From IMG/VR virus record IMGVR_UViG_3300038555_000007, positions 1-44,470 of that record: a stretch of DNA of 44,470 nucleotides. One strand, written 5' to 3'. Source of the stretch: a virus. Made by a program: the position numbers and the translations under genes. Position 1 is the stretch's first letter. Each line of letters starts with the position of its first letter. The notes beneath the pieces were generated by a model. That model saw only the letters and a list, made by a program, of their open reading frames with translations, was not told the DNA's origin and did not search any database. Positions 5,030-9,431 of the stretch are shown one piece after another.

Positions 5030-6118
5030 TTAAGCGGCCGAGGCCATCAGCAGCGGTTGACCGGGCTTCGCAGCAATGAGGTCGGCATAGCGTTGGTGAA
5101 TTGGCTGCCGATCGACGAAAGTCGGTGCTAGGCCGATGATGCTGGAGACCTCGGCGCGCACTTCGGCCAGCAGGTCAGCCTCGCCGTCCGTCAGCATGCG
5201 GGTTGGCCAGCCCTTCACGTAGAGCATGTCCTTCGTCAGCCGCTTCTCGGCGGCGACACGACGGGCGGCGTTGACCTTGGCCAGTGCCAGACGATCAGCC
5301 AGTTCACCTCCCAGCAAGTGCGGCGCTACATCGCCGAGCCAGCGGGAGCCCTGGAAGGCAAATGTGCTGTCCGCTTCAAGGGTGACTTGGCGGCGATATA
5401 GGTCATGTCCTTCGGGCTGTGCCGCTGCTGCAACCATGTCGTCAATGTTCGACATGATGCACCACCGGCATGACACTCGGCTCATCCCAAACACCCTGTA
5501 GGCAGGGTGAGGATCGAGGCCGCTTGCGTCGATCGCAGCAAAGACTTCATCGACCGACCAGTCGACTATGGGGCGCCAAGTCAAAATGCGCCTGTCAGCA
5601 TCCCAAGCCGAGACAGTGGATTTGGATCGGGCAGCGCTTTCTGCCCGCCGTACGCCTGTCACGTTGATGATAGGCTGGCCCTTGAAGCGGCGCTTCAACT
5701 CAGCCGTGATAGGATGGGTTTTGAGTTCCGATGTGCAGAAGCGCATCGATGGCGTCGACCAACATGGCACCAGCGTCACCGTCGAGAGGGCCTCCCAGCG
5801 GTCTTTGCTCGACTGCCAGCGGCTTTCCCATCGCTCCATCAATCCGCCCGCCTTGCGGCGGACGGTGACCAAGCCGATGTCCAGGTGCCCCGCAAGGCGC
5901 TCGCAGACTGGGAAACTGTCTTTCCACTCGACAGAGCCGAGGTCAGCGTGGATCAGCAGGCGAGGCCCGCCATGCCCGACGCTGTCCAGGTAGGCGATTG
6001 TGGCGAGAGCGGCGGCCTGACTGTCCTTGCCGCCAGAGACCCCAATCGCCACGACAGCGCCTTGCTGGATCAAGTTATCGACTGCGGGGCATTCCGCGAC
6101 GGATGGCTCTGTTCTCAT
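5030..6118 (-). CDS. PP-loop ATPase, PAPS-reductase/DndC-like
   Basis: 362 aa. The PP-loop SGGKDS (28-33) binds ATP and adenylates substrates in the PAPS reductase/ATP sulfurylase superfamily. Further family marks are C119, C128 (FCTSELK), GVRRAES (155-161), WRPIVDWS (181-188) and HPAYR (204-208). CRWC (217-220), with the earlier cysteines, could hold a metal or iron-sulfur cluster as in DndC. It is the first gene of the left operon, directly after the operator-controlled promoter, so it would be expressed early after induction. No sulfate-assimilation or dnd genes are near. Phage homologues may alter DNA or nucleotides, or counter host defences; the true substrate cannot be told from sequence. 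Confidence 0.82.
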   Translation of the reverse strand: MRTEPSVAECPAVDNLIQQGAVVAIGVSGGKDSQAAALATIAYLDSVGHGGPRLLIHADLGSVEWKDSFPVCERLAGHLDIGLVTVRRKAGGLMERWESRWQSSKDRWEALSTVTLVPCWSTPSMRFCTSELKTHPITAELKRRFKGQPIINVTGVRRAESAARSKSTVSAWDADRRILTWRPIVDWSVDEVFAAIDASGLDPHPAYRVFGMSRVSCRWCIMSNIDDMVAAAAQPEGHDLYRRQVTLEADSTFAFQGSRWLGDVAPHLLGGELADRLALAKVNAARRVAAEKRLTKDMLYVKGWPTRMLTDGEADLLAEVRAEVSSIIGLAPTFVDRQPIHQRYADLIAAKPGQPLLMASAA

Positions 6119-6164: not shown

Positions 6165-6179
6165 TGGAATTTAAATCCA
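6165..6179. promoter_or_regulatory. Left operator, copy 1 (TGGAATTTAAATCCA)
   Basis: An imperfect palindrome identical over all 15 bases to the site at 9184-9198 in front of cro, about 3 kb away. It overlaps the -10 element of the promoter reading into the PP-loop gene. Exact identity at two promoters flanking the repressor gene is what a CI-type repressor regulon shows, so repressor binding is the likely role. Confidence 0.78.
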
Positions 6180-6203: not shown

Positions 6204-6218
6204 TGGAATTATCTTCCA
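6204..6218. promoter_or_regulatory. Left operator, copy 2 (TGGAATTATCTTCCA)
   Basis: A second 15-bp dyad, TGGAA-N5-TTCCA, centred 39 bp from copy 1. It shares the TGGAATT half-site with copy 1 and with the cro region. The 39-bp spacing is near four helical turns, so two repressor dimers could bind one face of the DNA and cooperate. Confidence 0.62.
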
Positions 6219-6294: not shown

Positions 6295-6519
6295 ATGTGT
6301 GATGGAGCATCAGTGTTGCTTCACGTCCGCTGCGGCGGGTGCGCGAAGCTGTACCAGCAGACCGTGATCTTGCCGGCGGGGCAGGGCGTCCCCCGGGATG
6401 GAGACGAGCTTATGGAATACCCAGAGGTTCGGAACGCGAACTTCCAATGCCCCAAGTGCGAGGCGCCCTATGCCGAGATCGTGGCGTTCAAGGTGAGGGA
6501 GACGAACCGTGCAGCATGA
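6295..6519 (+). CDS. Small zinc-ribbon protein under a LexA box
   Basis: 74 aa with a good ribosome site (GGAGG, 6 nt before ATG). Two CxxC pairs, CGGC near residue 14 and CPKC near residue 52, separated by about 35 residues, suggest a rubredoxin-like zinc ribbon. No catalytic residues. It begins right after the SOS box and is followed by an overlapping second gene. In coliphage 186 the LexA-controlled gene in a comparable place encodes an antirepressor; that role is only an analogy here. It could also be a host-interaction protein. Confidence 0.68.
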   Translation: MCDGASVLLHVRCGGCAKLYQQTVILPAGQGVPRDGDELMEYPEVRNANFQCPKCEAPYAEIVAFKVRETNRAA

Positions 6520-6820
6520 GGTCAACCAGTTCATCGTCGTCGCGCCCGCCGGAATGGGGAAAGCCATCGAGTGGGCGGAGCCGCAACTGCGATCATACCT
6601 GGAGGGGCATTTCCCGCTCTATAGCTTCCGGATCGAGCCGTATGGTCCGTTTCCCGATGAAGAGGACTTCGCGGTCATACCGATCATGAGCCGATCGGCT
6701 GAGTTAGGGGAGCAGAAAGAGCCTGACCAAATTTTCTTGGCTCAGCTTGATCCTTCAGTGATTCCTGAAATTCGGCAGGTGCTCAGGGCATTCGACCCAA
6801 GTGGTCTTCAAGCCCACTGA
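6509..6820 (+). CDS. Hypothetical protein, second gene of the SOS-box pair
   Basis: 103 aa from GTG at 6509, preceded by GAGGGAGA and overlapping the first gene by 11 nt. It opens with a strand-rich part (NQFIVVAPAGMGKAIEWAEPQ), contains FPLYSFRIEPYGPFPDEEDF, and ends with a helix (PSVIPEIRQVLRAFDPS). AGMGK recalls a P-loop, but the spacing GxxxxGK[ST] is not met, so no nucleotide-binding call is made. Expected to be co-induced with the zinc-ribbon gene. Function unknown. It converges on the DUF3037 gene, with only 28 nt between. Confidence 0.6.
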   Translation: MQHEVNQFIVVAPAGMGKAIEWAEPQLRSYLEGHFPLYSFRIEPYGPFPDEEDFAVIPIMSRSAELGEQKEPDQIFLAQLDPSVIPEIRQVLRAFDPSGLQAH

Positions 6821-6848
6821 TCCTGCAATTCGACAACGCTCGTCGTCC

Positions 6849-7694
6849 TCAATCGAAAATGTTGGCCGTGCGCCGAAGCTTTGGGTCGGGAGTCGCCCCG
6901 GGAAGAGCAAAACTAATCAACCCTTGAACGTCATCCATATCGATCACGTTGACCCCAAGGCCGCGCAGACCCATGACCGCTTCGTCCTTGGCCTCTCTGG
7001 CGTACGGCTCATTCGGGTCGACCGCGTGGTCGATTGGCAGGAGGACGTGATGCGGCTCAAGCTTATTTTTTGCCACCAGGTGGCGTAAGCGTGCCTGCCA
7101 AGTTGCGCCGTGATCTATGATGCCGATTGTGGACTTCTGAAGAAAAGCGAGGGGCTTTATCACCCGTGTGCCGTTGCTCTCGCTGCCCAAGTCGAACGAA
7201 ATAGGCATGATCTCATCTTCGATACGTATCCTGCGATAGCCTCGAATAGCGTTCTTCTTCAGGGTTTGGCTCACCGAGCGCGTCAGCAGCGCCTCTCGGT
7301 ATTCCGGCGTGACGAAGCTCCGCATCACGTACCGCTGATACAGTTCGTCAACGATGGACTTTAGGCTTCCATCGGCCATGATGAGGCGTACTTCACTAAA
7401 CGTGACCGCGGATTCGCGCTCCTTAGTGAGGTGGTCAAATGCCATCCCGGCCGAAGTTCGCCGGTCTTGCTCTATGCGCTTGAATTCGAGGCGAAGGCCA
7501 GCGACCGTGTTCGAATACACAGCAGCATCGACGTCATGAAAGAAGCCGCTGATCCGGCGCAGCCTTCTCGGCGCAAGCTTGAAAGCAAAACGTTGAGTTG
7601 AAAACTGCAGCGCGACAATGCCAACATTGGCAAACTCGCCAGTTTCGACGAAAGGCCTAAATCTAACAATGCTGTAGCGTACTATCGTGCTCAC
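6849..7694 (-). CDS. DUF3037 family protein, partner of the HipA-like kinase
   Basis: 281 aa. The opening STIVRYSIVRFRPFVETGEF followed by ANVGIVA is the hallmark of DUF3037. The GTG start at 7694 has a GGGAG ribosome site and overlaps the kinase stop as GTGA; the ORF could be extended 5 codons, but that would discard the coupling. DUF3037 genes often occur beside HipA-like kinase genes in bacterial genomes. The protein may be a substrate, inhibitor or targeting partner of the kinase; I know of no fixed biochemical role. No membrane segments. Residues PHHVLLPIDHAVDP (about 220-235) form a conspicuous histidine-rich turn. Confidence 0.85.
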   Translation of the reverse strand: MSTIVRYSIVRFRPFVETGEFANVGIVALQFSTQRFAFKLAPRRLRRISGFFHDVDAAVYSNTVAGLRLEFKRIEQDRRTSAGMAFDHLTKERESAVTFSEVRLIMADGSLKSIVDELYQRYVMRSFVTPEYREALLTRSVSQTLKKNAIRGYRRIRIEDEIMPISFDLGSESNGTRVIKPLAFLQKSTIGIIDHGATWQARLRHLVAKNKLEPHHVLLPIDHAVDPNEPYAREAKDEAVMGLRGLGVNVIDMDDVQGLISFALPGATPDPKLRRTANIFD

Positions 7695-8422
7695 AGCAGC
7701 GGCTCCCAAAATTCTTGCTGTTCATAAGCCCAGAGACGGGCGAAGATATCGTAAATGTGGCCCGGTGCCTGTTCGGTCCAAGCGCCAGGAATTTCCGCCG
7801 CTATCGAGTGCATACTTTCCAGAGCCAAAGACATATCACCCCGAATGGTATCAGGGAAAATCAAATCAACTGCGGGTTGCCGCCATCCTCTCTCGCAAAC
7901 ATGCAGAGGCGAATTCGCGACAAAATCGAAAGCCGGATCGAACGCCATATTGTGATCAATTACAACGGGCTGGGACTTCGCGAAATCGAAGAACAAGTTT
8001 GGATTGCCTTGACCATCGACACCCGTCCGGTCCTCGTTCTTGATCCAATAGTCGAAGAGAAACAGTCGCTGTTGAAAGGCTCTGGGTAGGCCCTTTAGCG
8101 TTGCGAGTGGCATCTCTACCATAGTTGGCACCGCTCTCGATGCAAAACACCACCCAGTTCCCAAGGAGCTTCGCGCTCCAGCATCGAAGTCCAGCATTTC
8201 TGCTGGCGCCTGCGCTAAGCAAAACTCCGGGATTGGTAGGCCGAAGGCTCTGCCCAAAGTTCCGGCTACCAGCTCGTTTATCAGTCCTGTAGCTAGGGCC
8301 TGCCGGCCCTTTACGAAATAGGAGAGGCCATCTGAGAGCGTACAGAGGTAGGGCGTCGTCATCCCACTCTCAGCGGGCCTGATGATCTCGCGAATTGTCT
8401 GATGCGAGATTTCGGCCGTCAT
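7691..8422 (-). CDS. HipA-like protein kinase (HipA_2 type)
   Basis: 243 aa. Kinase elements are visible: the ATP-anchoring lysine K38 (YFVKG), a catalytic loop KNEDRTG (128-134, base D131) with metal-binding N142 (GNPNLFF), and a DFG-equivalent IDHNMAFD (155-162, D156). HipA itself phosphorylates glutamyl-tRNA synthetase and causes dormancy; the compact HipA_2 group lacks HipA's N-terminal subdomain and its substrates are not known to me. The ATG shares one base with the repressor stop (TGATG), so the start is at 8422, and the kinase should be made whenever repressor is. No HipB-like antitoxin is adjacent; the repressor HTH or DUF3037 might fill that role. Confidence 0.87.
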   Translation of the reverse strand: MTAEISHQTIREIIRPAESGMTTPYLCTLSDGLSYFVKGRQALATGLINELVAGTLGRAFGLPIPEFCLAQAPAEMLDFDAGARSSLGTGWCFASRAVPTMVEMPLATLKGLPRAFQQRLFLFDYWIKNEDRTGVDGQGNPNLFFDFAKSQPVVIDHNMAFDPAFDFVANSPLHVCERGWRQPAVDLIFPDTIRGDMSLALESMHSIAAEIPGAWTEQAPGHIYDIFARLWAYEQQEFWEPLL

Positions 8423-9126
8423 CAACCCGGCAGCCTATGGATGATATCCCTCACCAGCCCCACGATGGCCACCTCGACCCCGTTGTCTTCCCAATTGTCA
8501 TGTTCAACGATGATGGGCTTGTGCTTAGGGTTCGTTGACCGCGGCTGGAATTCAATCCTGTCTTCGAACCACTCCACCTGCTTGACCGACAGCTCACGCT
8601 CCTGGCCGCCGTTCTTTGATCGTTGGATGACGACCACCAGGCCGTTGCGAAGGGGCGACCGGCTGGAGATCTCGTCATAGTCGATCGCGACCAGGCGCGA
8701 CCCGGGCGTGATCGGATGGGGCTTCAGGTCATTCATCGAATCCCCAGCTACGTCATAGACCCGCTGCGTTGCGTCAGGAAACTTGTCGTCAGCGGGCACC
8801 GTGACCCACTCCGGATCATCCTGGGCGAGCTCGTCCACTTCGCGCCAGGCGCCCGCCTCCACAATGGCCACTACAGGAGCTGTACCGGCAGAGCGTGATA
8901 CCCGCCGGATCTCGGCGCCCTCGGCCTCAATGCCTTCCTTGAGCCATAGCGCTGTCTTGTCAACGGCCTTGGCCAAGGTCTCGAGCACGTTGCCGCGCGG
9001 GTTGTCCACTTCGCCCCGAAGGTACTTGTTGAGGCTGTCGTAAGAGATGCCCGAACGCCGATGAAGCTCGGCCTTGTTCCAGCCGAGCTCGTCAATCCGA
9101 GCCTGAAGTCGTTCCCACCATTTCAT
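8422..9126 (-). CDS. CI-type prophage repressor with S24 (LexA-like) self-cleavage domain
   Basis: 234 aa. XRE/Cro-type helix-turn-helix at residues 1-65 (WNKAELHRRSGISYDSLNKY), linker, then a LexA-fold peptidase: cleavage site A91-G92 (VEAGAW), nucleophile S130 (GDSMN) and general-base K182 (SVKQ). It should hold the lytic promoters silent and be inactivated when RecA filaments trigger autocleavage. Start at MKWWER; the ORF could begin 4 codons earlier. It is transcribed away from cro across the shared operator region, and its transcript carries the HipA-like and DUF3037 genes. Confidence 0.92.
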   Translation of the reverse strand: MKWWERLQARIDELGWNKAELHRRSGISYDSLNKYLRGEVDNPRGNVLETLAKAVDKTALWLKEGIEAEGAEIRRVSRSAGTAPVVAIVEAGAWREVDELAQDDPEWVTVPADDKFPDATQRVYDVAGDSMNDLKPHPITPGSRLVAIDYDEISSRSPLRNGLVVVIQRSKNGGQERELSVKQVEWFEDRIEFQPRSTNPKHKPIIVEHDNWEDNGVEVAIVGLVRDIIHRLPG

Positions 9127-9149
9127 GGCAAGAAGCATAGGTCAGGAAA

Positions 9150-9170
9150 ATAATTCCGAATTGGAATTAT
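9150..9170. promoter_or_regulatory. Inverted-repeat operator between cI and cro
   Basis: ATAATTCC-GAATT-GGAATTAT, a perfect 8-bp inverted repeat around a 5-bp centre. Each arm is the GGAATTAT half-site also seen at 6205-6212. It lies 24 nt upstream of the repressor start and next to the cro promoter, so it is the best candidate for repressor autoregulation or Cro binding. Confidence 0.68.
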
Positions 9171-9176
9171 CAGGCA

Positions 9177-9205
9177 TTGAAACTGGAATTTAAATCCAGT
9201 ATGAC
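9177..9205 (+). promoter_or_regulatory. cro promoter with operator inside its spacer
   Basis: TTGAAA (9177-9182), 17-nt spacer, TATGAC (9200-9205). The spacer holds the 15-bp operator TGGAATTTAAATCCA (9184-9198), identical to the left operator, so repressor would exclude polymerase. The predicted transcription start, 9211-9213, coincides with the ATG at 9213, suggesting a leaderless cro mRNA. Confidence 0.58.
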
Positions 9206-9212
9206 ATTGGGC

Positions 9213-9431
9213 ATGGAAAGCACCCTGACAGTTGCCCAGATCATCAAAATGGCCGGCGGCCCTGCTGCAATCGCGGAAGCGAGTGCGGGCGCTATCAAGA
9301 AGGACGCGGTCTACAAATGGCCGTCCATCGGCGTGCCTGACCGTCACTGGCAAATCCTCATTGAGCGGGCAGGGGTCACGGCAGAGCAGCTGTACGCGGC
9401 CAATCTCGGCGCGCGCGGGGTGGCGGCATGA
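9213..9431 (+). CDS. Cro-like / YdaS-type helix-turn-helix protein
   Basis: 72 aa. TVAQIIKMAGGPAAIAEAS followed by KKDAVYKWPSIGVPDRHW is the usual helix-turn-helix plan of small Cro/YdaS proteins, where the second helix (DAVYKW) enters the major groove. Divergent from the repressor, under the operator-bearing promoter, it should be the first rightward gene and oppose repressor synthesis. The frame is open from a TTG at 9177 and an ATG at 9201, but these fall within the operator and -10, so ATG 9213 is preferred. Stop overlaps the next start as ATGA. Confidence 0.75.
   Translation: MESTLTVAQIIKMAGGPAAIAEASAGAIKKDAVYKWPSIGVPDRHWQILIERAGVTAEQLYAANLGARGVAA

Follow-up and report, generated by a model that had tools for sequence, protein, structure and literature searches.

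The HipA-like kinase and DUF3037 protein of Retron-Sda1 protect E. coli from phage Bas51, and while deletion of the kinase abolishes defence and deletion of DUF3037 is toxic, the upstream HTH gene, the RT and the ncRNA are all dispensable for it (PMC12548924). The same architecture is represented by DS-6, since renamed HipAD, where a catalytic kinase mutation removes defence, AlphaFold3 predicts a kinase-DUF3037 complex and DUF1829 was reported in the second protein, DS-6B (PMC13092281); that paper credits HipAD to Brenes & Laub 2025. PDC-M66 is thus no longer a mere candidate, its role as an anti-phage toxin-antitoxin system having been validated in 2025-26. Among phages, Escherichia phage PhiR5_1 (PV340545) carries cI, HipA and HipD in this order, annotated as toxin/antitoxin, with the pair present in 284 of 5,426 complete E. 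coli genomes, and the repressor, kinase and DUF3037 genes of Klebsiella phage Kp4864-1 stand in the same order. Salmonella phage SW-37 (L003, 4990-5701) likewise shows this order, there with HipA_2 split over two frames by an apparent frameshift and an intact DUF3037 gene.

The window analysed here, a virus record of 44,470 bases taken over its whole length, belongs by gene content to a temperate tailed phage with integrase (954-2045), replication, terminase, portal, tape-measure, tail-fibre and endolysin genes. Its nearest isolate phages have Sinorhizobium and Rhizobium as hosts, and 150 genomes from the family of a Sphingomonas contained no close match to its repressor. An S24-type CI repressor gene on the minus strand is followed by genes for a HipA_2 kinase and a DUF3037 protein, overlapping from stop to start (Table 1). 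Judged by its sequence, this pair corresponds to HipAD/DS-6, that is PADLOC PDC-M66, an already described anti-phage toxin-antitoxin system. The original prediction had seen in it a little-described system, which does not hold given the published defence and the cI-hipA-hipD genes in the same place of PhiR5_1, and the function it proposed is close to the results obtained with the homologues. While the system itself was known, what is new is another HipAD member, the alphaproteobacterial phage group carrying it, and a cassette slot that becomes visible against close relatives. We consider it probable that the locus is a HipAD-type (PDC-M66/DS-6) anti-phage toxin-antitoxin system, carried as interchangeable immunity-region cargo of a temperate alphaproteobacterial phage, which would be expressed in the lysogen, restrained by DUF3037 and act by abortive infection.

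Table 1. Features of the immunity region and of the slot behind the repressor gene (window positions).
Feature	Position	Strand	Basis or remark
CI-type repressor, HTH + S24 peptidase	9126-8422	minus	Pfam; alternative ATG 9138
HipA_2 kinase (HipA of HipAD; PDC-M66A), probable toxin/effector, 243 aa	8422-7691	minus	Pfam PF20613, PADLOC, conservation, model
DUF3037 protein (HipD; PDC-M66B), probable antitoxin, possible trigger-sensing partner, GTG start	7694-6849	minus	Pfam PF11236, PADLOC, phrog_5137
Promoter-like site for repressor operon, TTTAAA-17-GATAAT	9166-9194	minus	Weak; overlaps operator-like sites
OR-like operator-like 15-mer TGGAATTTAAATCCA	9184-9198		Exact copy at 6165; position conserved in relatives
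Second OR-like site, weaker half TGGAATTATCAGGCA	9162-9176		Proposed from position; degenerate pattern at chance level window-wide
Third OR-like site AGGAAAATAATTCCG	9144-9158		Proposed from position; chance-level pattern
OL-like operator-like 15-mer TGGAATTTAAATCCA	6165-6179		Exact copy of 9184 site
Second OL-like site TGGAATTATCTTCCA	6204-6218		39 bp from first; relatives' pair about 40 bp apart
Divergent Cro-like regulator	9177-9431	plus	phrog_409, transcriptional regulator
Exchangeable cassette	6690-8413		L232 homology stops at 8414, resumes at 6689
Convergent gene closing far side of slot, 103 aa	6509-6820	plus	Conserved in most relatives
Convergent 74-aa gene, paired CxxC (zinc-ribbon-like), between slot and OL-like sites	6295-6519	plus	Conserved in most relatives

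Three features of HipAD/PDC-M66 were found: a HipA_2 kinase, an adjacent DUF3037 gene in the same operon, and the catalytic residues K38, N129, D131, N140, N142 and D156. The kinase matches HipA_2 with 217 bits (cut-off 27) and PDC-M66A with an E-value of 2.5e-7, and it keeps every residue that is invariant across 153 aligned kinases, so that the active site, of which the original prediction had singled out K38 and D131, is intact (K38 in 152 of the 153; E50, D124, N129, D131, R132, N140, N142, D156, N158 and H174 in all). A single-sequence scan of IMG/VR with the kinase returned zero relatives and an alignment-based scan was needed; phmmer and profile searches against the PDB gave nothing usable for either protein. 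The structure model, built from 65 homologues (pLDDT 94.9), has PI4KIIalpha and the CtkA of H. pylori as its best matches and HipA and HipT as weaker ones further down the list, and these matches assign the modelled fold to the HipA/PI3-4-kinase-like kinases. Identity between the kinase and other members is no more than 26-39%, and its branch in the kinase tree is long, so that its target and trigger may differ from those of the homologues.

The DUF3037 protein scores 64 bits against its Pfam family and E 1.9e-12 against PDC-M66B, and at several positions that are conserved elsewhere in the family it departs from the consensus. DUF1829 was listed by hmmscan for none of 64 family members, and its assignment to DS-6B in the paper may stem from more sensitive methods; a separate DUF1829 search matched nowhere at all and is therefore uninformative. 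The model has a pLDDT of 92.2 with a low-confidence C-terminal tail, and Foldseek against the PDB found no confident solved relative. Its weak matches were XisH, BsoBI and Card1, and the C-terminal half (residues 130-263; window 7305-6905) is predicted to follow an alpha-beta-beta-beta-alpha-beta order in residues 130-252, a hint, which we do not raise to a claim, that this half might be restriction-endonuclease-like and perhaps a DNA-binding or sensing domain.

Direct reading of both junctions confirmed the overlaps that had been proposed: the repressor TGA (8424-8422) and the kinase ATG (8422) share one base in TGATG, and the kinase TGA (7693-7691) overlaps the DUF3037 GTG (7694) as GTGA. 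An alternative kinase start, TTG at 8425, would overlap the repressor stop as TTGA, and the repressor ORF starts at 9126 or at an in-frame ATG at 9138, kept in most relatives. The original prediction placed all three genes on one mRNA and named a terminator between repressor and kinase as evidence to the contrary; on the minus strand between 6500 and 9500 we found no terminator-like site, hence none between the three ORFs, which together with their overlaps supports a single operon that would be transcribed polycistronically. Two promoter-like sites were found versus 1.2 expected, lending weak support to a repressor-operon promoter. The Shine-Dalgarno match is weak at the kinase start (-4.0, about the 29th percentile of random sites in the window) and better at the DUF3037 GTG (-6.5, 7th percentile), which fits a kinase coupled to translation of the repressor and a DUF3037 gene served by its own site, being compatible with such coupling but short of proof.

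Control of the operon appears to follow lambda. The 15-mer TGGAATTTAAATCCA occurs exactly both in the gap between the repressor and Cro-like genes and beyond the convergent genes, and within three mismatches it has five matches across the window versus 0.34 expected. In relatives, a site of this type recurs some 776 bases before the end of the repressor, and beyond the slot there are two, spaced by about 40 bp; within two mismatches, the 38 related loci hold 132 sites, against 0-2 in shuffles. A degenerate operator pattern, TGGAATTNNNTTCCA, was rejected as it was at chance level, and only the 15-mer and its conservation were used for this reason. With predicted operators flanking the repressor operon and a divergent Cro-like gene, the layout is, as far as the DNA can tell, that of lambda OL and OR, with repressor and passengers between putative operators. 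The repressor has HTH_26/HTH_3 and Peptidase_S24 domains above cut-off, S130 (in GDSMN) and K182 are invariant in nine aligned sequences, and an Ala-Gly at 91-92 is a possible self-cleavage site, so that it looks cleavable. From this and the OL/OR-like layout we infer that lysogens would be supplied constantly with the pair, and that the supply would be lost upon induction and repressor cleavage. The translational link to an apparently cleavable repressor thereby yields a testable prediction, namely that defence is switched off upon induction.

Just past the OL-like operators lies a PAPS-reductase-like gene (5030-6118, minus strand) with weak PADLOC matches to BrxP/DndC/SspD, preceded by a promoter-like TTGACA-17-TAAATT (6196-6168) that overlaps an operator-like site. 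It looks like the first gene of a leftward lytic operon, and as homology to contig L232 also breaks at the operator, it may be a second exchangeable module.

Relatives of the window repressor were present on 38 contigs, with identities of 95% in L232, 85% in L235 (C-terminal part) and mostly 49-60% in the others, and HMMs for both proteins detected the kinase/DUF3037 pair in 0 of these 38 loci. The original prediction had counted such absence from most prophages with the same repressor, if joined by a lack of effect on infection or growth, against itself; the absence is what we found, and we read it as the mark of exchangeable cargo, rather than as absence of function. Compared with L232, the window shows DNA homology of 86% as far as 8414, immediately beyond the repressor stop, and homology of 81% once more from 6689, 1.7 kb further on. 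The slot, defined as the stretch from the repressor to the small convergent genes and scored in the 34 contigs sharing the zinc-ribbon-like gene, is empty in 24 of them, and in the other 10 it is longer or occupied. In L232 (6702-7694) it holds three small overlapping ORFs with zero Pfam or PADLOC matches among them, of which the first overlaps the repressor stop as ATGA, while a hydrophobic segment is present in the third; elsewhere it contains DUF3800 (L235), a PDC-S42-like protein (L240), PDC-M06B (L277/L292), an unnamed 338-aa protein (L236/L276) or an antisense acetyltransferase (L278). Of the cultured phages, Sinorhizobium phi3LM21 has an empty slot, and Rhizobium RHph_TM3_3_3 carries DUF3800 right after the repressor. 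The homology break at the repressor stop and the contents of the relatives' slots identify the pair as cargo at a defined exchange point, which bears out the proposed lambda rex-like position. Tentatively, the region from repressor stop to convergent genes might even be a dedicated slot for defence cargo, with cassettes swapped at the repressor stop under OL/OR-type control, and its unannotated genes (the L232 trio and the 338-aa protein) might then represent undescribed anti-phage systems. As has been done in enterobacteria with the P2/P4 hotspots and the rex position of lambda, the slot could be mined for new defence genes, here in rhizobial phages and their relatives.

How often such pairs follow a repressor, a tabulation proposed at the outset, was determined by alignment-based scans of virus and genome contigs, which gave 233 kinase hits (157 distinct kinases), every one (233/233) with an adjacent DUF3037 gene. 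Taking as upstream protein the longest ORF ending within 700 nt, a CI-like repressor preceded the kinase on the same strand in 58 of 86 distinct virus-record kinases versus 4 of 71 from bacterial contigs (Fisher p about 1e-16), and in 31 of 51 versus 4 of 62 once sequences more than 85% identical were removed. Given this definition of the upstream protein, the abundance of enterobacterial phages among the virus records and the chance that one prophage is sometimes present as both a virus and a genome record, the counts are indicative. Among 81 distinct upstream proteins from virus records, Pfam found HTH_3 in 47 and S24 in 39; in bacterial contigs, the commonest upstream domain was Type I restriction specificity (8/66). 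Trusting well-supported branches only, the kinase tree requires at least 11 changes for the repressor-linked copies of virus records, so the link has arisen or been exchanged on many occasions. In two virus contigs (L005, 5081-5989; L081, 4395-5285), the gene of an RNase_T-family exonuclease, for which the Pfam tally also has BRCT, shares 4 nt with the HipA_2 start and is possibly a third component of a HipAD variant. In several virus contigs (L064-L069), the gene before HipA_2 is DinI-like, which suggests a second recurrent, SOS-linked location for the pair.

This distribution bears on an alternative in which the kinase acts mainly on the prophage switch, phosphorylating the repressor or a host regulator to tune lysogeny and induction, with defence secondary. 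The predicted translational coupling of kinase to repressor would suit it, as would KKP in Pseudomonas, which PMC11341870 describes as a prophage kinase module controlling lysogeny and defence. However, the pair stands behind many different repressors, in bacteria accompanies Type I restriction genes without a repressor, and is dispensed with by the relatives of the window repressor, and we consider this alternative unlikely.

We therefore return to defence by a HipAD-type system, for which the following course may be envisaged. In the lysogen, the CI repressor promoter would yield a single mRNA encoding all three proteins, the kinase being translated mainly by re-initiation at TGATG and DUF3037 from its own fair ribosome site; DUF3037 would bind and restrain the kinase, infection by another phage would presumably disturb this restraint, and the freed kinase might phosphorylate an essential target, so that growth of cell and invader stops in an abortive infection. 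The restraining role, which the original prediction had assigned to DUF3037, gains support from the homologue, where removing it is toxic and removing the kinase puts an end to defence (PMC12548924). The window and its relatives show the anatomy of the operon, the intact active site, the membership in the family, the exchange of the cassette and the conserved operators; defence, its dependence on the kinase and toxicity without DUF3037 have been demonstrated by others with homologues, and the window copy itself would be expected to defend. Against this explanation we count the divergence of the kinase, the 0/38 related contigs, the deviations in DUF3037 and the weak promoter. The same toxin-antitoxin logic, extrapolated from the homologue where loss of DUF3037 is toxic, together with the constitutive lysogenic expression expected from a repressor operon, would also serve a prophage-addiction module, in which loss of the prophage frees the kinase to kill cured cells and other phages play no part; this we hold to be quite unlikely, since homologues block phages (PMC12548924, PMC13092281) and the slot of relatives holds other defence-candidate genes.

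Separate HipB-like genes are lacking in the locus. That the upstream HTH repressor, whose gene overlaps that of the kinase and lies ahead of it, as hipB does with respect to hipA in hipBA, is itself the HipB equivalent neutralising the kinase, with DUF3037 as an accessory, is most improbable and was set aside because of the published deletion data, with 67 of 71 bacterial copies moreover keeping DUF3037 yet having no detected upstream repressor-like gene. In Retron-Sda1, deletion of the HTH gene leaves defence intact, whereas deletion of DUF3037 is the toxic one (PMC12548924).

HipAD, a recently validated defence system, is now placed in alphaproteobacterial phages, as cargo lying exactly after the repressor gene against a background of 38 relatives, and from its junction with the gene that keeps the phage dormant, the dormant phage probably shields its host from rival phages. 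Like HipBA and HipBST, the window pair joins a HipA-like kinase toxin to an operon partner, but their antitoxins (the HTH protein HipB and HipS, respectively) are other than DUF3037. Moreover, classical HipA has about 440 aa, whereas the window kinase has 243 and the HTH protein upstream of it is an S24 repressor. The locus has a two-gene PDC-M66 system like that of Retron-Sda1, which is functional without the retron parts, although there the pair lies beside a type III retron RT and ncRNA, with no phage repressor. Lambda RexAB, P. putida RexAB and BTP1 BstA are likewise lysogen-expressed defence genes downstream of cI (PMC12894663, PMC8585504), but their proteins and mechanisms are unrelated to the window pair. 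Closest is HipAD/DS-6, with a HipA_2 kinase gene followed by an overlapping DUF3037 gene, which in PhiR5_1 stands directly behind the CI repressor; however, alignment of the two kinases gives an identity of about 27-30%, cI and hipA of PhiR5_1 lie 122 nt apart where the window genes overlap, and PhiR5_1 is an enterobacterial phage, whereas the window derives from an alphaproteobacterial one.
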